64,000 nucleotides of DNA from an uncultured Alphaproteobacteria bacterium (lineage in GTDB: Bacteria > Pseudomonadota > Alphaproteobacteria > Caulobacterales > Hyphomonadaceae): assembly GCA_903842595.1 (NCBI GenBank), contig CAIMMO010000268.1, positions 1-64,000 on the forward strand, in the 5' to 3' direction. The translations under genes were made by a program, and so were the position numbers. Of this stretch, positions 19,551 to 37,170 are shown piece after piece (position 1 is the first letter of the stretch; each line of letters begins with the position of its first letter). The notes under the pieces are model-generated. The model was not told the DNA's origin. It ran no database searches and saw only the letters and a list, made by a program, of their open reading frames with translations.

Positions 19551-20833
19551 GCCGGAACGCCTACCAGTTCGGTCGCGGTGCGCGAGACCAGATGGAAGAG
19601 GGCGGGGCGGCCTGGCTCGGGCGCGGCTCCTTCGAGTCTGACGGGCGCGAAGTTCGAGAGCCGGGCGCGATTGCCGGCCTCGACCAGCGCCATCGCGGTC
19701 TGGCCGACATGGCGGTCCAGGCGAAGGCCAAGGCGCTCGGCGCCTTTCTGGCGGAGGATCGCGGCGCGCGCCTTCACCACGTCGCGCGCAACCTGCGGCA
19801 TCTTCGCGGCGGGCGTCTGCGGGCGCGGCGAGTAGGGGAAGACGTGAAGATAGTCGATGCCGCAGTCGTCCACGCTGGCGAGCGTATTGGCAAACATGGC
19901 GTCGGTCTCGGTCGGGAAGCCAGCGATCAGGTCCGCGCCGAAGGCCATATCAGGGCGGGCGGCGCGCAGGCGGTGGCACAGGTTGATTGCATCGGCGCGC
20001 GAGTGGCGGCGCTTCATGCGCTTGAGGATCATGTCGTCGCCCGACTGGAAAGACAGATGCAGATGCGGCGCGATGCGTGGCTCGCTGGCGAGGAGATCGA
20101 ACAACGCCTCGTCGATCTCGATGGCGTCGATCGAGGACAGGCGCAGCTGCTTCAGGTCCGGGACGAGCTTCAGGATGCGGGCGATGAGGTTGCCGAGCTT
20201 CGGCGCGTTCGGCAGGTCGGCGCCCCAGGAAGTGAGATCGACGCCGGTGAGCACGATTTCATGATGTCCAGTGGCGACGAGCCGCCTCACCTGGTCCACG
20301 ACTTCGCCAGCAGGCACCGAGCGCGAGTTGCCGCGGCCATAGGGGATGATGCAGAAGGTGCAGCGGTGATCGCAACCGGTCTGCACCTGGACGAAGGCGC
20401 GGGCGCGGCCATCGAGGCCGTCGACCAGATGCGCCGCCGTCTCGCGTACCGACATGATATCGTTGACCTGCACGCGCGGCGCATCCGCCAGCAGGTCAAG
20501 GCCGGTGAAGGTCTCCGCTTTCATCTTCTCCGCATTGCCGATGACGCGGGAGACTTCGGGCATGGCGGCAAAGGACGCGGGGTCAATCTGCGCCGCGCAA
20601 CCGGTGACGATAATGGCAGCTGCAGGGCGCTCGCGCCGCGCGCGACGGATCGCCTGACGCGCCTGGCGGACGGCCTCGGCGGTGACGGCGCAGGTATTGA
20701 CGATGATGGCGTCCGACAGGCCTGCGGCCTCGGCGTGGCCGCGCATCACCTCTGATTCATAGGCGTTCAGCCGGCATCCCAGTGTGAGGATGTCGACAGA
20801 GGAATTGGCGAGGGTGGGGGCGCCGTCGGCCAT
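19547..20833 (-). CDS. mtaB: tRNA t6A37 methylthiotransferase MtaB
   Basis: A 428-residue radical-SAM enzyme that adds a methylthio group to t6A37 of tRNA. The N-terminal UPF0004 domain has three cluster cysteines ('TLGCRLNAYESE', 'NTCAVT', 'VTGCAAQ'). The radical-SAM CxxxCxxC motif is 'GCDHRCTFCIIPYGRG' (about residues 153-168). A short TRAM-like segment ends the protein. Pairing with ftsY is common in alphaproteobacteria. Confidence 0.95.
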   Translation of the reverse strand: MADGAPTLANSSVDILTLGCRLNAYESEVMRGHAEAAGLSDAIIVNTCAVTAEAVRQARQAIRRARRERPAAAIIVTGCAAQIDPASFAAMPEVSRVIGNAEKMKAETFTGLDLLADAPRVQVNDIMSVRETAAHLVDGLDGRARAFVQVQTGCDHRCTFCIIPYGRGNSRSVPAGEVVDQVRRLVATGHHEIVLTGVDLTSWGADLPNAPKLGNLIARILKLVPDLKQLRLSSIDAIEIDEALFDLLASEPRIAPHLHLSFQSGDDMILKRMKRRHSRADAINLCHRLRAARPDMAFGADLIAGFPTETDAMFANTLASVDDCGIDYLHVFPYSPRPQTPAAKMPQVARDVVKARAAILRQKGAERLGLRLDRHVGQTAMALVEAGNRARLSNFAPVRLEGAAPEPGRPALFHLVSRTATELVGVPA

Positions 20834-20886
20834 GGCGGGGACATAGGCCGACAGGTCGCGGTTGTCACGCGCCCAGGGTCACGCGG

Positions 20887-21369
20887 TCAGGCTTTGGGCG
20901 GAACCGGATAGTCGATGCCGCCGAGCCTGTTGAGGAGCTGGGCCAGCTGCAGCGCTTCAGCGTCGCCGATTCGCTTCATCGCCTCCTCCATCGCCGGCGC
21001 GTAGACGGTCCACATCCGTTTACGCATCTCGTAGCCTTCGGGCGTGGGCTCCAGCAGATGGCCGCGCTTGTCTTCAGGGCAGGCGATGCGTTGCACCAGC
21101 CCTTCCTCTTCCATGCGGTCGACCAGCCGCGAAAGCTGGTAGGGCATGATGAAGAGCGGGATGGCCAGGTCTTTCGGCCGGGTCGGCTTTGCGGCGCGCT
21201 CGAGCTCCCACAGCACGGTGTACCATGTGATGTCGGGGAGCCTGGCGTTCTTCAGGGCCAGCGCCACGTCTTCGCGAATGGCCTGCGACACGCGCCCAAG
21301 CGCAATCCAGGCCCTCTGGATGGGATCTGAAGGAATCCTCGCAGGTTCCTTTAGCTGAGTTTGTTGCAT
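20887..21369 (-). CDS. MarR-family regulator, divergent from an FMN reductase
   Basis: A 160-residue winged-helix regulator: 'LPDITWYTVLWELERA' precedes the recognition region 'LFIMPYQLSRLVDRMEEEGLV' and the wing 'CPEDKRGHLLEPTPEGYE'. The ORF track begins at a TTG (21378); the ATG at 21369 is the more usual start. An AGGAGG at 21386-21381 lies 11 nt before that ATG and 5 nt before another TTG at 21375, so the exact start is unsure. Two palindromes, one covering the start codon and one beside the ribosome-binding site, suggest autorepression and control of the divergent reductase. Confidence 0.9.
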   Translation of the reverse strand: MQQTQLKEPARIPSDPIQRAWIALGRVSQAIREDVALALKNARLPDITWYTVLWELERAAKPTRPKDLAIPLFIMPYQLSRLVDRMEEEGLVQRIACPEDKRGHLLEPTPEGYEMRKRMWTVYAPAMEEAMKRIGDAEALQLAQLLNRLGGIDYPVPPKA

Positions 21370-21378
21370 TCGCAACAA
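21361..21378. promoter_or_regulatory. Operator palindrome 1 (MarR type)
   Basis: TTGTTGC-ATTC-GCAACAA is an 18-bp inverted repeat with perfect 7-bp arms. It overlaps the start codon of the marR-like gene. It shares 15 of 16 core bases with palindrome 2, whose centre is 26 bp away. Confidence 0.75.
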
Positions 21379-21387
21379 TGCCTCCTA

Positions 21388-21403
21388 TGTTGCATTTGCA
21401 ACA
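21388..21403. promoter_or_regulatory. Operator palindrome 2 (MarR type)
   Basis: TGTTGC-ATTT-GCAACA is a 16-bp inverted repeat with perfect 6-bp arms, in the short gap between the regulator and the FMN-reductase gene. Paired near-identical palindromes next to a MarR gene are the expected layout of its own operators. Confidence 0.75.
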
Positions 21404-21479
21404 AATGAGTGGGGCCAGCCATTTTGCCAATGGCCAAACCGGAATTTCCCAAGCCCCTCAGCTGGAAAGGGACACTGCC

Positions 21480-22043
21480 ATGACCCGTACAATCGCGACA
21501 ATCGTTGGCTCGCTCCGGGCGAACTCGAATTCCGAACGCATCGCCCGGGCGATTGCTGCCGAAGCGCCCAAGGATATGAGCTTCGACATTGTGACCATCG
21601 GAGATCTGCCGCTCTACAACCCCGATCTCGATGCTCCGACCCCGCCAGCCGCCTGGACGGCCTTCCGCTCACGGATCAAATCGGCCGACGCAGCGCTGTT
21701 TGTCACGCCCGAGTACAACCGCTCCGTGCCCGGAGCGCTGAAGAATGCGATCGATGTCGGCTCGCGGCCATATGGCCAGAGCGCCTTTGCAGGCAAGCCG
21801 GCAGCGGTGGTCTCCTCGTCGATGGGCCCGATCTCGGGCTTCGGCGCCAACCATCACCTGCGTCAGTCGCTCGCCTTCCTCGACATGCCCACGCTGCAAC
21901 AGCCGGAAGTCTACCTCGGCGGCGTCAATGACGGCTGGTTCGGCGCCGATGGCCGACTGACCAGGGACGACACGCGCGCCTTCATCGGCAAGTTCGGGCA
22001 GGCATTCGCCGCCTGGATCGAACGCACAGCGCCGAGCAGATAA
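21480..22043 (+). CDS. NADPH-dependent FMN reductase family protein
   Basis: A 187-residue flavodoxin-like protein. 'TIVGSLRANSNSERIARAI' is the FMN phosphate-binding loop of the FMN_red family, and 'LFVTPEYNRSVPGALKNAIDVGSR' is the second conserved segment, as in quinone/chromate reductases and azoreductases. It probably reduces FMN, quinones or similar electrophiles with NAD(P)H. The ORF begins at 21378 inside the operator; the ATG at 21480, after GGAAAGGGACACTGCC, gives the family-standard start. It is probably controlled by the divergent MarR protein. Confidence 0.93.
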   Translation: MTRTIATIVGSLRANSNSERIARAIAAEAPKDMSFDIVTIGDLPLYNPDLDAPTPPAAWTAFRSRIKSADAALFVTPEYNRSVPGALKNAIDVGSRPYGQSAFAGKPAAVVSSSMGPISGFGANHHLRQSLAFLDMPTLQQPEVYLGGVNDGWFGADGRLTRDDTRAFIGKFGQAFAAWIERTAPSR

Positions 22044-22077
22044 GCTTCAGGCGCCGCCGCGGAGGCGGAGGTCAGAC

Positions 22078-22110
22078 TGCGGGGCAGGCGCAAGCCAGCC
22101 CCGCATTTCT
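22078..22110 (+). terminator. Hairpin terminator between convergent genes
   Basis: TGCGGGGC-a-GGC-GCAA-GCC-a-GCCCCGCA forms an 8+3 bp stem with one A/A mismatch and a GCAA tetraloop, followed by TTTCT. It lies between the stops of the FMN reductase and the DUF2145 gene and could serve both. Confidence 0.7.
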
Positions 22111-22114
22111 GCGT

Positions 22115-22951
22115 TCAGGAGGAGGATGGCCGGCGGCGCAGGATATACGCCTCTTTCAGCAGGCCGTTGTCCCTCATGAAGGCCGCCATCGATTCGTAGG
22201 TGGCGGTGATGATCGTGCTGCCCTGGTCGTCGGTCTTGATACGGTCCTCGGCCAGCGGCGCGAGGAAGCGCTCGATCAGCGAGGTTTTGACTTTGGTCGG
22301 CCTGAAATGCTGTTTCAGGTTGGCCTTGATCTGCGCCATGTCGGCCGTCTCCCACGCTGCCGCCGCGATGATGTCGAGCATGAACTCCGTGCAGTTCTGA
22401 TACCTTATGTCGTGCGGGTTGGAGACAAGCGAATAGGCCTCGATGTGCAGCGCGCGATACGTCGGGCTGTCCATGATGGAAAGAATGCGCCGCTGCATTT
22501 CTGCCGTCGGCACGATCACCGCAATATCGTCGACCGCGCTTGGCGCCACGAAGTCGATCGGAAAGTCCTGATGCAGGTAGGACTTGTCCATCGCCAGCGT
22601 CTTCCCGTCGCCGTGGTAGAGATTGTAGACGGCGTAGCCGTTGATCACGCGGCCATCGTCAAGGCTGATCGGCACGAAGGTCCAGAAGGCGCCATGCGTG
22701 TAGGAGATGCCGTCGGGCAGCATGTCCCGCGTCTCTCCTGTGCGAAACACAATGGCGAGGCGCGTGCCTCTGTCGGCGAGGTCACGTTCGACCTGTTTCG
22801 AGAACGCAGCCGCCTGCTCAGCGGTGAGATGACTGGCCGGAGCCCCTCGGGCGCTGAAGCCGCCGCCGCCGGCCGTTGTGGAGCCTCCGCCTGCGCTGGC
22901 GCATGCAGCAAGGCTGAGCGCCGCGACACCGGCGATGAGAGAGCGCATCAC
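22115..22951 (-). CDS. DUF2145 lipoprotein
   Basis: A 278-residue protein with a lipoprotein signal peptide ('AGVAALSLAACASAG', lipobox Cys near residue 17). The mature part matches DUF2145 by 'DGISYTHGAFWTFVPI', 'GYAVYNLYHGDGKTLAMDKSYL' (segment) and 'RYQNCTEFMLDIIAAAAWE'. The conserved Asn-Cys and His residues resemble a papain-like/NlpC-type fold, but this is only a suggestion. It overlaps the preceding small secreted gene by 4 nt, so the two are one transcript. Confidence 0.82.
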   Translation of the reverse strand: MMRSLIAGVAALSLAACASAGGGSTTAGGGGFSARGAPASHLTAEQAAAFSKQVERDLADRGTRLAIVFRTGETRDMLPDGISYTHGAFWTFVPISLDDGRVINGYAVYNLYHGDGKTLAMDKSYLHQDFPIDFVAPSAVDDIAVIVPTAEMQRRILSIMDSPTYRALHIEAYSLVSNPHDIRYQNCTEFMLDIIAAAAWETADMAQIKANLKQHFRPTKVKTSLIERFLAPLAEDRIKTDDQGSTIITATYESMAAFMRDNGLLKEAYILRRRPSSS

Positions 22952-23343
22952 TGGGCCGGCGTGGAGGGCACGACGGGAGCCGGCTGCGCTTGTCGCTGCC
23001 TCTGCCGGCCGACGACCACGTCGTCTGTGATGGTGAGCGGCGCGTTCGAGAAATCGACAACAGCCCTCGCAGCGTCAGTGACGTCAGCCGCGCCCGCGCT
23101 GAAGCCGTCTGCGATGCCGTCCTGGCCGGACGCACGCGCGGCAATGCCGACAGCGCCAGAGGCAAGGGCTGCGCCGCCCAGCGGGATCGAGACAACACCG
23201 GAGCTGGCCCTGAGACCGCTCTCGCCGATGGCGCCGGCGGCGATGCTCGTCTGCCTCGAGGCGGCCGAAGCATTCTGGGAGAATTGAGCGTGGGCGGCAG
23301 GCGAGATGGCCATCAGAGTGGCCGCAGTCAGAACCAGGCGCAT
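22948..23343 (-). CDS. Small secreted Ala/Gly-rich protein, unknown
   Basis: A 131-residue protein with a clear signal peptide ('LTAATLMAISPAAHA', cleavage near residue 19). The mature part is rich in Ala, Gly and Ser, probably with one hydrophobic stretch near residues 50-68, and ends in a Gln/Pro-rich tail. No family was recognised. GAAGGG lies 6 nt before the ATG. It is followed by the overlapping DUF2145 gene, suggesting a paired envelope function. Confidence 0.75.
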   Translation of the reverse strand: MRLVLTAATLMAISPAAHAQFSQNASAASRQTSIAAGAIGESGLRASSGVVSIPLGGAALASGAVGIAARASGQDGIADGFSAGAADVTDAARAVVDFSNAPLTITDDVVVGRQRQRQAQPAPVVPSTPAQ

Positions 23344-23406
23344 TGGAATTCCCTTCGCTGATTGACAGTGTCTAATTATCGGGGAAATCGGGCGTCAATG
23401 GGGCAG

Positions 23407-23422
23407 ATTACACTGCTGTAAT
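23407..23422. promoter_or_regulatory. Inverted repeat upstream of the secreted-protein/DUF2145 operon
   Basis: ATTACA-CTGC-TGTAAT is a perfect 16-bp inverted repeat about 64-79 bp upstream of the secreted-protein start and within the gap to the next gene. It could be a regulator-binding site; no adjacent regulator gene identifies the binder. Confidence 0.4.
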
Positions 23423-23452
23423 GGATGTTCTCGGGCAGCTGCACTGACGCCG

Positions 23453-23716
23453 TCAGGTCAGGCGGTCGGTATTTTTCCTTTGCCCGTCATCGTCGCCATC
23501 ATCCTCGTCTTCAGCGACGTGCTCGCGACGCGCTTCCTCAAGATGCCGCGTGCCGGGGTCAGTGAAGCCGAAGCCAGTGAGAACGTCCCCGCCGCTGCTC
23601 TTCGATTTCACCTTGCGCCAGTAGATCCAGCCGCGCGCCTCCATCCAGAGCAAGAGGCGGTCGAGCGCGATCAGCGCGATGGCGATGCCGGCGATCCAGA
23701 GTGCAATGTCGAGCAT
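23453..23716 (-). CDS. Small membrane-anchored protein, unknown
   Basis: An 87-residue protein with one N-terminal membrane helix ('IALWIAGIAIALIALDRLLL'), a short basic aromatic segment ('ARGWIYWRKVKSKS') and a very acidic C-terminal region ('AEDEDDGDDDG'). No family was recognised. The ATG lies 2 nt after a perfect 13-bp hairpin whose 3' arm contains the only good ribosome-binding site (GGGAGG), so translation is probably limited by that structure. Confidence 0.7.
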   Translation of the reverse strand: MLDIALWIAGIAIALIALDRLLLWMEARGWIYWRKVKSKSSGGDVLTGFGFTDPGTRHLEEARREHVAEDEDDGDDDGQRKNTDRLT

Positions 23717-23718
23717 GC

Positions 23719-23750
23719 GGCGCCTCCCATCCGCAAAGATGGGAGGCGCC
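23719..23750 (-). promoter_or_regulatory. Hairpin that sequesters the RBS of the 23453-23716 gene
   Basis: GGCGCCTCCCATC and GATGGGAGGCGCC form a perfect 13-bp stem with a 6-nt loop. Read on the minus strand it begins 11 nt after the stop of the molybdenum-oxidoreductase gene, has no T-tract, and ends 2 nt before the next ATG, with GGGAGG inside its 3' arm. It may act as mRNA end protection for the upstream gene and as a translation block for the downstream one. Confidence 0.7.
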
Positions 23751-23761
23751 AGAATGTTTCG

Positions 23762-25936
23762 CTAGGCTTTCGTGCCGAGCGGCAGTTTCGCATAGGTCTT
23801 GCCGGTGGCGGCAAGCAAAGCGTTGGCGACGGCGGGGCCGATTGGCGGGACACCGGGCTCGCCCACGCCTGATGGCGGCTCGCTCGAGGGCACGATGAAC
23901 ACCTCCACCTTCGGCATCTGCGCCATGCGCATCACGCTATAGTCGAAGAAGTTCGTCTGCACCGGCGCGCCATCCTTCAGTGTCACAGCCTCGCCCAGGA
24001 TGGACGACAGGCCATAGCCGATGCCGCCCTCCATCTGCGCGCGCACGATGTCGGGATTGATGACGATGCCGCAGTCGACGGCGCAAACAACGCGATCGAC
24101 GTGGAACGTGCCATCGTCCTTGACCGAGACCTCGGCCACCTCAGCCACATAGGACGAGAAGGAGTGGTGCACGGCGATGCCGCGGAATTTTCCGGCGGGC
24201 AGGGGCGTGTCCCAGCCGGCTTTTTCAGCGGCAAGGTTCAGCACGCCGAGCAGGCGCGGATGCGCAGCCAGCAGTTCGCGGCGGTAGGCCACCGGATCCT
24301 TGCCGAGCTTCTTCGCTGCCACGTCGAAGAAGTGCTCCTTGGCATAGGCGGTGTGAGTGTGACCCACCGAGCGCCACCACAGCACGCTCACCGGCGAGGT
24401 CGGCCAGTGAACGTCAGCGGTGATGTTGGAAATCGCATAGGGAATGTCGAACCCGCCCTCGATCGAGGAAAGGTCAGCTGCACCTGCTGGCATGAAGGGT
24501 GTGCCCGCCATGATCGACTGGATCGCCGTGCGGTCGCCCCAGGCCTCGATCGCGTCCCTGTTGAGACGCGCCGTCATGCGGTGCAAGGCCATCGGGCGAT
24601 ACTTGCCCGAGCGGATATCATCTTCGCGCGTCCACATCAGCTTCAGCGGCGCCTTGCCGTTGATGGCCTTGGCGATCTGGGTCGCTTCCATCATCAGATC
24701 GGCGTCCTGCGTCGCACGGCGACCGAACGAGCCGCCAGCCAGCATGGTGACGATGCTGACCTGCTCCGGCTTGAGGCCCAGCACGGCGACGGCGGCGCCC
24801 TTGTCGGCCGTCGGCATCTGCGAGCCGGAGTGGATCACTGCGGCTTCGCCGGGCTTGTATTCGACGACGCAGTTCAGCGGCTCCATCGGCGCGTGGGCGA
24901 GGTAGGGGAATTCGAAGTCGGCGGTGATGACTTCGCCCGCGCCGCGCAGCGCGGCGGCGCCTGCGCCTTCCTTGCGGGCGTCGTGACCGGCCTTGGCCAG
25001 CAGCTTCTTGTAGTCAGCGAAGATCTGGTCGCTCGAGCGGGTCTCGGCTGCGGAATCGTCCCAGGTGATCTTCAGCGCGTCGCGGCCTTTCTTTGCCGCC
25101 CAGAAATCAGTGGCGACAACAGCAACGCCGTTCGAGATCTGCACGACATCGGTGACGCCCTTGACAGCCTTGGCCGCCGTGTCGTCGAAACTCGCGACCT
25201 TGCCGCCGAATTTCGGGCTGCGGGCAAGGAGCGCTGTGAGCGTGCCTTCGGGGTGATAATCGAGCGCGTATTGCGCGCGCGCACTGACCTTGTCGGCGCT
25301 GTCGAGGCGGCCGAAGCCCTTCGATGAGTCACGCTCCTTGCCGATGAATTCGTAGGCTGTAGCGTCCTTGTACTGCAGCCTCGCCGCATCGGGAGGCGTG
25401 ATCTTCGCGGCTTCCGCGGCGAGTTCACCATAGGAGGCGGACTTGCCACCGGCTTCCGCCTTGCCCTTCACGAGCAGGACGTCGGACGCATCGACGCCGA
25501 ACTTCGCAGCGGCCGCCTGGCGCAGCATTTCGCGGGCGCTGGCGCCTGCGGCGCGCAGCTGGGCCCAGGACGAGAAAATCGCGGTGGAGCCGCCGGTTCC
25601 CATCACGCCGCCGAAAGCCGGGTTGCCGTACTTCGCGTCGTCAGCCGGCGAGTGCTCGAAGCGCATCTGGCTCCAGTCAGCATCGATCTCTTCGGCGACG
25701 ATGGTCGTGAGGCCGGTCGAGACGCCCTGACCGAACTCGATATGGCGCAGATAGACGGTGATCGTGTTGTCCGAGCCGATGCGCACATAGTCACCAAGCG
25801 CGGTCTGCGTAACCGGACCGGCGGCAGCTGTCGTGGTGTTTCCGGCCGAGCAGCCGACGGCAAAACCGGCGGCGCCAAGGCCCATGACCGTCAGCACGAG
25901 ACGGCGCGAGGGGGAGAAGGTTGCGGTGTCAGCCAT
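23762..25936 (-). CDS. Molybdopterin-binding oxidoreductase large subunit (IorB-like)
   Basis: A 724-residue xanthine-oxidase-family protein of the isoquinoline 1-oxidoreductase beta type. The N-terminus has a twin-arginine signal with lipobox-like Cys ('[21 protein letters not shown]'), so it is probably exported folded with its cofactor. Family markers are '[15 protein letters not shown]', '[17 protein letters not shown]', '[15 protein letters not shown]' and the C-terminal '[21 protein letters not shown]', which contains the active-site Glu. The ORF track runs on to 26227 by overlapping the [2Fe-2S] gene; the ATG at 25936 lies 5 nt after that gene. It probably oxidises an aldehyde or N-heterocycle. 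Confidence 0.92.
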
Positions 25937-25941
25937 GTCGA

Positions 25942-26394
25942 TTACCCCATGATCTCGGAGGCGCGCGCAACGGCGCCACGGATGCGGTGATAGGTGGCGC
26001 AGCGGCAGATGTTGGAATTCATGCCGTCGGTGATCTGCTGTTCGGAGGGCTTGGGCGTCGCAGTGAGGAGCGCCGCGGCAGCCAGCATCTGGCCCGACTG
26101 GCACCAGCCGCACTGCACGACGTCGAGTTCCTGCCAGGCGGCCTGAACAGCCTTGCCAGCGGGCGTATCGAGACCTTCGATCGTGGTGATCTTCTTGCCG
26201 GCGAGCGAGGCGGCCGGTGTCATGCACGCGCGTGTGGGCTCGCCGTCCACGAGGACCGTGCAGGCGCCGCAGGCGGCGACGCCGCAGCCGAACTTCGTGC
26301 CGGTAAGTTTCAGGTCCTCACGCAGGTACCAGAGCAGGGGGCGATCTTCCTCGCCCGTATATTCCTGTTCCTTGCCGTTGATCGTCAGCTTCAT
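25942..26394 (-). CDS. [2Fe-2S] oxidoreductase small subunit (IorA-like)
   Basis: A 150-residue protein with the plant-ferredoxin-type cluster ('FGCGVAACGACTVLVDGE') and the second helical-domain cluster ('CGWCQSGQ' and 'NICRCATYHRIR'). It carries electrons from the molybdenum site of the following large subunit to an outside acceptor. No cytochrome c subunit gene is adjacent, though many such pairs have one. No export signal is seen, so co-export with the Tat-tagged partner is likely. Two inverted repeats lie upstream. Confidence 0.94.
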   Translation of the reverse strand: MKLTINGKEQEYTGEEDRPLLWYLREDLKLTGTKFGCGVAACGACTVLVDGEPTRACMTPAASLAGKKITTIEGLDTPAGKAVQAAWQELDVVQCGWCQSGQMLAAAALLTATPKPSEQQITDGMNSNICRCATYHRIRGAVARASEIMG

Positions 26395-26410
26395 GGCAAT
26401 CCTCCGCCGT

Positions 26411-26425
26411 CAGCCTCTGAGGCTG
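26411..26425. promoter_or_regulatory. Palindrome just upstream of the iorA-like start
   Basis: CAGCCTC-T-GAGGCTG is a perfect 7-bp-arm palindrome centred about 24 bp before the ATG of the [2Fe-2S] subunit. It could be an operator or an mRNA leader hairpin. Confidence 0.4.
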
Positions 26426-26464
26426 CTGATAGAAATCCGCGGCGCTCTTGCGCCGTCCCGTTCG

Positions 26465-26498
26465 CTTCCATGTGAGTGGATGCTCACATTTATGGAAG
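26465..26498. promoter_or_regulatory. Long inverted repeat upstream of the iorAB-like operon
   Basis: CTTCCA-TGTGAG-TGGATG-CTCACA-TTTA-TGGAAG pairs 6+6 bp with a 4-nt bulge; the inner ATGTGAG/CTCACAT arms are perfect. It sits 71-104 bp upstream of the iorA-like start, a typical place for a TetR- or AraC-type operator. Confidence 0.5.
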
Positions 26499-26567
26499 TA
26501 GCCGGACGCAACTGATCACGCCTGTGATACGAAAGCGATATGTCCCACGAACTACAGCGGCGCTCGC

Positions 26568-27374
26568 CTAGTGGGCGGACGGCTCGACGCCAGCCTTCTT
26601 GTCCTTCCGCTTGCGCGATATGAGGTTCAGGAACTCGACGAAGGCCGAGAACGCCATGGCTGCATAGATGTAGCCCTTGGGCACATGGATGCCGAAGCCG
26701 TCGGCGATCAGCACCATGCCGATCATCAGCAGGAAGCCGAGCGCCAGCATCACCACGGTGGGGTTGGCGTTGATGAAGCGGGCGAGCGGGCCGGACGCCA
26801 GCAGCATCACTGTTACCGCCGAGATGACGGCGATGAACATGATGACGAGGTGTTCGGTCATGCCGACGGCGGTCAGGATCGAGTCGATCGAGAACACCAG
26901 GTCGAGCAGGATGATCTGGAAGATGGCGGCGCCGAAATTGAGGGCGGCGCGACCGGCGATCGGGGCGTCTTCCTTGTGATTGGTTTCAGGGTCCATCGTG
27001 TGATGGATTTCGGACGTGGCCTTCCACACCAGGAACAGGCCGCCCGCGATCAGGATGAGGTCGCGCCAGGAGAAGGACGTCTCGAACGTCGGCTCACCAT
27101 GCTCACCGGGCGGGCCGGTTATGCCAAGATCGATGACCGGCTGCACCAGACCGACGATCCAGGTGATCGTGAACAGCAGGAGCAGGCGCATGACCAGCGC
27201 CAGGCCGATGCCGATGTTGCGCGCCCGCTCGCGCTGCTCCTCGGGGAGCTTGTTGGTGAGGATCGAGATGAAGATCAGGTTGTCGATGCCGAGCACGATT
27301 TCCATGATGACCAGCGACACAAGCGCCGCCCACGCAGCCGGATCATTCAACAGCGGCGAAAAGTCGAAATCCAT
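26568..27374 (-). CDS. TerC-family membrane protein
   Basis: A 268-residue protein with seven to eight membrane segments. '[20 protein letters not shown]' and '[21 protein letters not shown]' are the two paired TerC motifs with membrane Asp residues. Family members handle metal ions (Mn2+ or tellurite-linked) at the inner membrane. An Asp/Glu/Lys-containing cytoplasmic loop ('[12 protein letters not shown]') lies mid-protein. It stands alone. Confidence 0.92.
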
Positions 27375-27465
27375 GGTGATGGCAGCTCCCTCGGCCCTTG
27401 CGGCCTGACCGCTATGTAGGGGGATTGCAGTTCAGAGTTAAGCGGAAAGCGACGGGCAGGCGGCT

Positions 27466-27990
27466 TTACGCAAGGCGAAGGCGCATGATGAATTCGTCAT
27501 CAATCGTGTCGCCGACCTTGAATTTGTAGGCCCCAACCTTCTCGAAGCCCCGGCTTTCGTAGAGCGCGATCGCCTTGTCGTTCGACTCCCAGACGCCAAG
27601 AAAGAGGTTCCTGGCGCCGCGCTGGCGGGCGCGTTCGATCGCCCAGGCAAGCAGGATGCGCCCGACGCCGACGCCCTGGCCGTGCTGGTAGACGTAGACC
27701 CGATGGAGTTCGAGGGCCGGCTCCGGGCCGGTCTCGATCGGCAGCTTGCAGGGGCCGATCTTGCAGTAAGCGACCATCCGCTTGCCGGAATAGGCGATAC
27801 GTACCTCGACATCCGGGTCCTTGAGGTCGCCCTCCATCTTGCTGACCGAATAGGTCTCATCAAGGAACTGGCGCAGATCGCCCGGCGGATAAAGATCGCC
27901 AAAGGTCTCGGCAAACGTCTCACGGCCAATCTCCGCGAGTCCTGCGGCGTCCTTCAGCTGCGCGTCGCGAAATGTCAGATCGCGGTCCAC
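27466..27990 (-). CDS. GNAT-family N-acetyltransferase
   Basis: A 174-residue acetyltransferase. The acetyl-CoA loop is 'QHGQGVGVGRILLAWAIERA' (Q/RxxGxG/A), and 'LFLGVWESNDKAIALYESRGF' is the conserved C-terminal half. The ORF track starts at 28056, inside the preceding gene; the GTG at 27990, after GTGGAGTGACC, gives a clean GNAT start, and GTG 27996 is an alternative. The substrate is unknown. It follows the NAD-GDH gene by about 30 nt and may be in its transcript. Confidence 0.88.
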   Translation of the reverse strand: MDRDLTFRDAQLKDAAGLAEIGRETFAETFGDLYPPGDLRQFLDETYSVSKMEGDLKDPDVEVRIAYSGKRMVAYCKIGPCKLPIETGPEPALELHRVYVYQHGQGVGVGRILLAWAIERARQRGARNLFLGVWESNDKAIALYESRGFEKVGAYKFKVGDTIDDEFIMRLRLA

Positions 27991-28021
27991 GGTCACTCCA
28001 CTCTCGGGTCGATGCTTTATG

Positions 28022-37096: not shown

Positions 37097-37136
37097 GAGC
37101 TACCCGACGGGTAGACATCCTCCGACAGGATGCGAC

Positions 37137-37170
37137 GGCGCGACCTTTACAGGTCGCGCCGTTTGCGTTT
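37137..37170 (+). terminator. Rho-independent terminator after the histone-like gene
   Basis: GGCGCGACCT-TTAC-AGGTCGCGCC is a perfect 10-bp stem with a 4-nt loop, followed by GTTTGCGTTT. It lies about 40 nt after the histone-like stop and about 10 nt before the stop of the convergent ubiB gene, so it may serve both. Confidence 0.85.

Follow-up and report, generated by a model that had tools for sequence, protein, structure and literature searches.

The only Shine-Dalgarno (SD) sequence of a small gene that follows a xanthine-dehydrogenase-like oxidoreductase in the window (the whole stretch of 64,000 nucleotides analysed here) is buried in a perfect 13-bp hairpin, and this hairpin probably switches translation off by a generally known type of mechanism. 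Judging from predicted folds and from the comparison of related genomes, it seems quite likely that the stem blocks translation of the small gene from within the operon, and, as part of the same overall explanation, that it is a cis-acting RNA element belonging to that gene.

The hairpin and its operon

The features on which the analysis is built are all on the minus strand:

25942..26394, minus strand: oxidoreductase small subunit ([2Fe-2S]), encoded by the first gene of the presumed operon
23762..26137, minus strand: XDH-L, molybdopterin-binding (xanthine-dehydrogenase-like) oxidoreductase large subunit; 5' end of the open reading frame approximate
23719..23750, minus strand: stem-loop, 13 Watson-Crick pairs, about -29 kcal/mol
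23750-23738, minus strand: hairpin 5' arm, GGCGCCTCCCATC
23741..23746, minus strand: anti-SD segment CCUCCC, non-coding, part of the 5' arm and conserved in homologues
23737-23732, minus strand: hairpin loop of 6 nt, UUUGCG (TTTGCG in DNA)
23731-23719, minus strand: hairpin 3' arm, GATGGGAGGCGCC
23723..23728, minus strand: SD sequence GGGAGG, entirely within the 3' arm, 6 nt 5' of the ATG; present in all homologous loci
23453..23716, minus strand: small gene, 87 aa, with an N-terminal membrane segment, an LWMExxGWIYWR motif, an acidic EDEDDGDDD stretch and a C-terminal DRLT

Read on the minus strand, the junction runs TAG-CGAAACATTCT-GGCGCCTCCCATC-TTTGCG-GATGGGAGGCGCC-GC-ATG: the XDH-L stop codon (TAG, 23764-23762) is followed by an 11-nt spacer (CGAAACATTCT), and 2 nt separate the base of the stem from the ATG of the small gene (23716), a placement already described in an earlier sequence-only reading of this DNA and reproduced by our coordinates. 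That reading had also called the 13-bp hairpin perfect, which is borne out by 13 Watson-Crick pairs between the two 13-nt arms (23750-23738 with 23731-23719), which the MFE fold extends by one U-G pair on the inner and another on the outer side, and had located the only SD in the 3' arm, where GGGAGG does lie (23728-23723), with a predicted probability of being unpaired of 0.0001.

The hairpin is not a random feature, and the original observation is accurate. In the local 111 nt, none of 200 dinucleotide shuffles was equally stable (z = -3.6), and no longer perfect stem with arms up to 60 nt apart occurs in the 64-kb window. An approximate survey of 367 gene starts, called with a home-made gene caller over about 390 kb of this genome, recorded the longest perfect stem whose 3' arm covers positions -14 to -5; our hairpin came first with 13 bp, the runner-up had 8 bp, and when the 367 regions were shuffled by mononucleotide in three rounds, no stem exceeded 10 bp. 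That the stem is such an outlier speaks for a block. The 13-mer arm occurs only once in the genome and its one-mismatch matches form no such stems, and we therefore rejected a genome-wide repeat or REP-like element. The pattern CCTCC...GGAGG...ATG gave 25 matches in this genome as opposed to 13 for a CCTCT control; these 25 were mostly short stems or other palindromes, and hairpins over ribosome-binding sites were discarded as a theme of the genome.

The small gene, third in the presumed molybdenum-enzyme operon, is considered real because of its coding score, its homologues and its dN/dS, which was 0.38, 0.17 and 0.35 against three relatives (dS about 1 for the last two); on these ratios it is under purifying selection. 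Searches of Pfam and NCBIfam with the 87-aa protein returned no match. In Geothrix (L034, L035) the LWMExRGWIYWR region forms the N-terminus of a longer protein, the C-terminal part of which looks hemerythrin-like by eye.

Conservation in related genomes

The small gene was found in six of 15 genomes of the genus and nowhere else in a family sample of 105 genomes. A stem covers the same GGGAGG in all six gene-bearing loci and in one truncated remnant copy, and at each locus GGGAGG pairs with an upstream segment of the YTCYC type; more distant homologues in other phyla showed no comparable stem. The seven stems are as follows:

Window: 13 bp plus U-G pairs
G001: 13 pairs, with GU
G004: 9 + 3 bp, closed by GGAA
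G010: 8 + 4 bp
G008: 9 bp + 3
G012 C70: weak, one mismatch
G012 C265: 13 pairs, closed by GCAA; after the oxidoreductase and before a small-gene remnant

Predicted stem energies in the gene-bearing loci range from -18 to -29 kcal/mol in five and reach -7.7 in the sixth, and the SD has a predicted unpaired probability of 0.0001-0.002 in five and 0.15 in the sixth. With the arms anchored by hand on CCC/GGG, 55 of 56 core pairs are retained, automated alignment being unreliable here because it displaces the 3' arms of G008 and G012. Among the five more divergent loci, mean identity is 80% in the 8-nt core of the 5' arm, which is non-coding and not itself an SD, against 33% in the 14 nt before that core (46% with the best shift) and 41% in the loop. 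Covariation is limited to two neighbouring pairs in a single genome, G010, where both sides are swapped (G-C to C-G and C-G to G-C), and is suggestive only; when whole 3' arms were dealt out anew, the observed pairing was in fact reached in 14% of shuffles. For these reasons the argument from conservation rests mainly on the contrast between arm and flank.

The cores of the stem are spaced 12, 14, 15 or 16 nt apart, a variability that would be as expected for an RNA loop. Perfect palindromic arms could also be read as an inverted repeat in the DNA bound by a dimeric regulator, but a core spacing that varies over 12-16 bp, arms that change by swapped pairs, unlike those of an operator, and the uniqueness of the arm in the genome make this the most improbable of the explanations that we considered.

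Not all copies of the small gene look intact. The G008 copy (C21, L005/L124) has no in-frame ATG, GTG or TTG at the expected start, the codon at SD+6 being GTA, and candidate readings are a non-standard start, a sequence error or early decay. In G012 C265 the gene is cut to 10 codons (MLEIRCPGLS-stop) and the stem is retained. The absence of a standard start in G008, the weak and mismatched stem of G012 C70, and a remnant that keeps its stem although the gene is truncated all count against a block.

The hairpin stays with the small gene

In seven of the genus genomes that lack the small gene (G003, G005, G006, G007, G009, G011 and G013), unrelated terminator-type stems lie right after the oxidoreductase. 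In G010, a 359-codon antisense gene separates the oxidoreductase from an intact hairpin and small gene (L119, C126, 1816-3384), and beside the oxidoreductase there remains a partial small-gene copy that lacks a start codon and no longer has the stem, its pairs being broken and its predicted fold different. Because an ordinary bidirectional terminator lies downstream of the small gene in G010 and of the remnant in G012 C265, we place the hairpin inside the operon and not at its end. The sequence CTAGGCAAACG is shared just 5' of the stem by G004 and G010; we rejected it as a promoter element, since the best account of it is a leftover from the stop region of the ancestral oxidoreductase, where G012 has GCC TAG GCAAGC.

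The strongest other role for the stem, and one that could coexist with a block, is that of a stabilising 3' structure, which, once Rho termination or processing has occurred downstream, would shield the oxidoreductase mRNA against 3'-5' exonucleases, burial of the SD being a side effect. In three loci the stem does lie 11-13 nt beyond the stop of the oxidoreductase, a position taken by terminator stems in genomes that lack the small gene; the G012 remnant retains a stem even though no functional gene follows it; and intercistronic stabilising stems are known in alphaproteobacteria, for example in the puf operon of Rhodobacter (literature cited in PMC6238624). However, the stems of G010 and G012 C70 precede the small gene away from the oxidoreductase, and the stem always centres on the SD, whereas its distance from the stop varies (13, 13, 13, 23 and 29 nt). 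We consider it decidedly unlikely that stabilisation is the main function.

A transcription terminator or attenuator placed just before the small gene is less probable still, and we give it little weight. The sequence-only reading had noted that the hairpin has no T-tract and is not a plain terminator, and we agree: the bases after the stem in the window are GCATGCTCG, and a terminator scan lists nothing at this hairpin. Several T-poor terminator stems follow the oxidoreductase in the genus, and G004 has AATTTTT directly 3' of its stem, but the T-tract is absent from the other five of the six gene-bearing loci, the window included, and in G010 and G012 an ordinary terminator is found further downstream. 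The G004 locus, whose small gene has a TTG start, may have drifted towards attenuation. Elsewhere in the window, the perfect 12-bp stems at 818-845 and 37135-37162, each with a 4-nt loop and short flanking T runs, look like ordinary terminators.

Translational block and its release

The block that we favour would work as follows. Once transcribed within the long oxidoreductase mRNA, the stem would fold and pair the sole SD with the CCUCCC anti-SD, 30S subunits would be kept off, and the small membrane protein would be made in very small amounts, or only when the stem fails to form. Two forms of release appear the most economical: a transcript or processing product that begins within the 5' arm or the loop, as in the late genes of T4, or rare re-initiation by ribosomes that are done with the upstream gene; regulation of this step by a protein or sRNA is also conceivable. 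We infer both the operation of the block in the cell and the nature of the release step, be it a shorter 5' end, rare re-initiation or another factor.

The sequence-only reading had suggested that the hairpin could block translation until melted or bound. The masking of the ribosome-binding site stands, as burial of the SD is predicted and conserved in six homologous loci; release by melting or binding finds no such backing, since we found neither a ligand, protein or sRNA nor an alternative structure, and -29 kcal/mol is too stable for simple melting. A search of the window against Rfam (riboswitch, thermometer and leader families) at the gathering score gave no match anywhere, and a promoter scan of 20000-28000, limited to the sigma-70 type, found none. 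A regulated switch, in which an sRNA, an RNA-binding protein or a nuclease that cleaves within the 5' arm would free the SD and turn the small protein on independently of the oxidoreductase from the same mRNA, seems to us unlikely.

Translational coupling would use the stem differently, keeping the small gene silent except where ribosomes that complete the upstream gene open the stem or re-initiate, and thereby holding the ratio of the two proteins. It shares the block of the ribosome-binding site with our preferred reading and differs in the release, so the likelihoods that we attach to the two overlap. In its favour, the distance from stop to start is 44-64 nt in five loci, and coupled pairs often have a structure masking the ribosome-binding site (PMC12548453). 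At no locus, however, does the upstream reading frame enter the stem, as coupling by RNA unfolding would have it: its stop codon is 11 nt short of the full stem in the window, and 13-29 nt short of the conserved core in five loci. Because the stop lies 11-29 nt before the stem, a terminating ribosome should not open it, and ordinary melting by ribosomes is unlikely. In G010, moreover, the upstream gene is no longer adjacent. Published precedents point the same way, as coupling was abolished in phage f1 VII-IX when the stop was moved well upstream of the hairpin, and structure right after the stop correlates with poorer coupling (PMC12548453). We thus regard coupling as possible though rather doubtful, and favour a default-off block because the stop precedes the stem and because these precedents disfavour coupling.

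Comparison with known systems

Hairpins that sequester the ribosome-binding site are found in T4 late genes and homing endonucleases (e, soc, I-TevI, segB, and mobE of Aeh1; PMC2988022). In these, as in the window, the start codon is closely preceded by a consensus SD concealed in a highly stable stem, on long transcripts that read through from genes further upstream, early transcripts in the phage case (PMC2988022). The T4-type stems, however, belong to phages and contain a late promoter, which yields transcripts without the 5' arm, whereas our hairpin sits on a cellular chromosome and the sigma-70 scan placed no promoter inside it. Masking of a downstream SD in a polycistronic mRNA is likewise seen in MS2 (coat/lysis and coat/replicase) and in E. 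coli rpmI-rplT (PMC12548453, PMC9894550), but in the window the upstream frame ends before the stem and its ribosomes do not traverse it. The intercistronic stems of alphaproteobacteria are also stable stems between operon genes and act on segmental mRNA stability (literature cited in PMC6238624), while the stem in the window is positioned over the SD and travels with the gene that follows it.

The hairpin is therefore a fresh instance of an already known type of translational control, located before an uncharacterised small membrane protein, and it flags that protein as attached to a molybdenum oxidoreductase operon. If it works as we propose, it would be an example, on a chromosome, of an operon with one gene translationally silenced by a stem that stays and decays with that gene, and the intact, moved, truncated and pseudogene copies would form a natural series for testing how an SD hairpin is maintained.

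Two further sites deserve mention. In L109 (G000 C5), a 6-bp stem, CCTCCC-GATCT-GGGAGG, covers the SD of a putative lipoprotein gene on the minus strand near position 1118. At 23408-23421 of the window, the palindrome TTACAGCAGTGTAA lies upstream of a 131-aa/DUF2145 gene pair; the dyad, with changes, is retained at this position in G001, G004 (TTACGGTACCGTAA), G005 and G013, and strong matches, identified from sequence similarity alone, occur in G003, G006, G009 and G012, which makes this palindrome a candidate operator.
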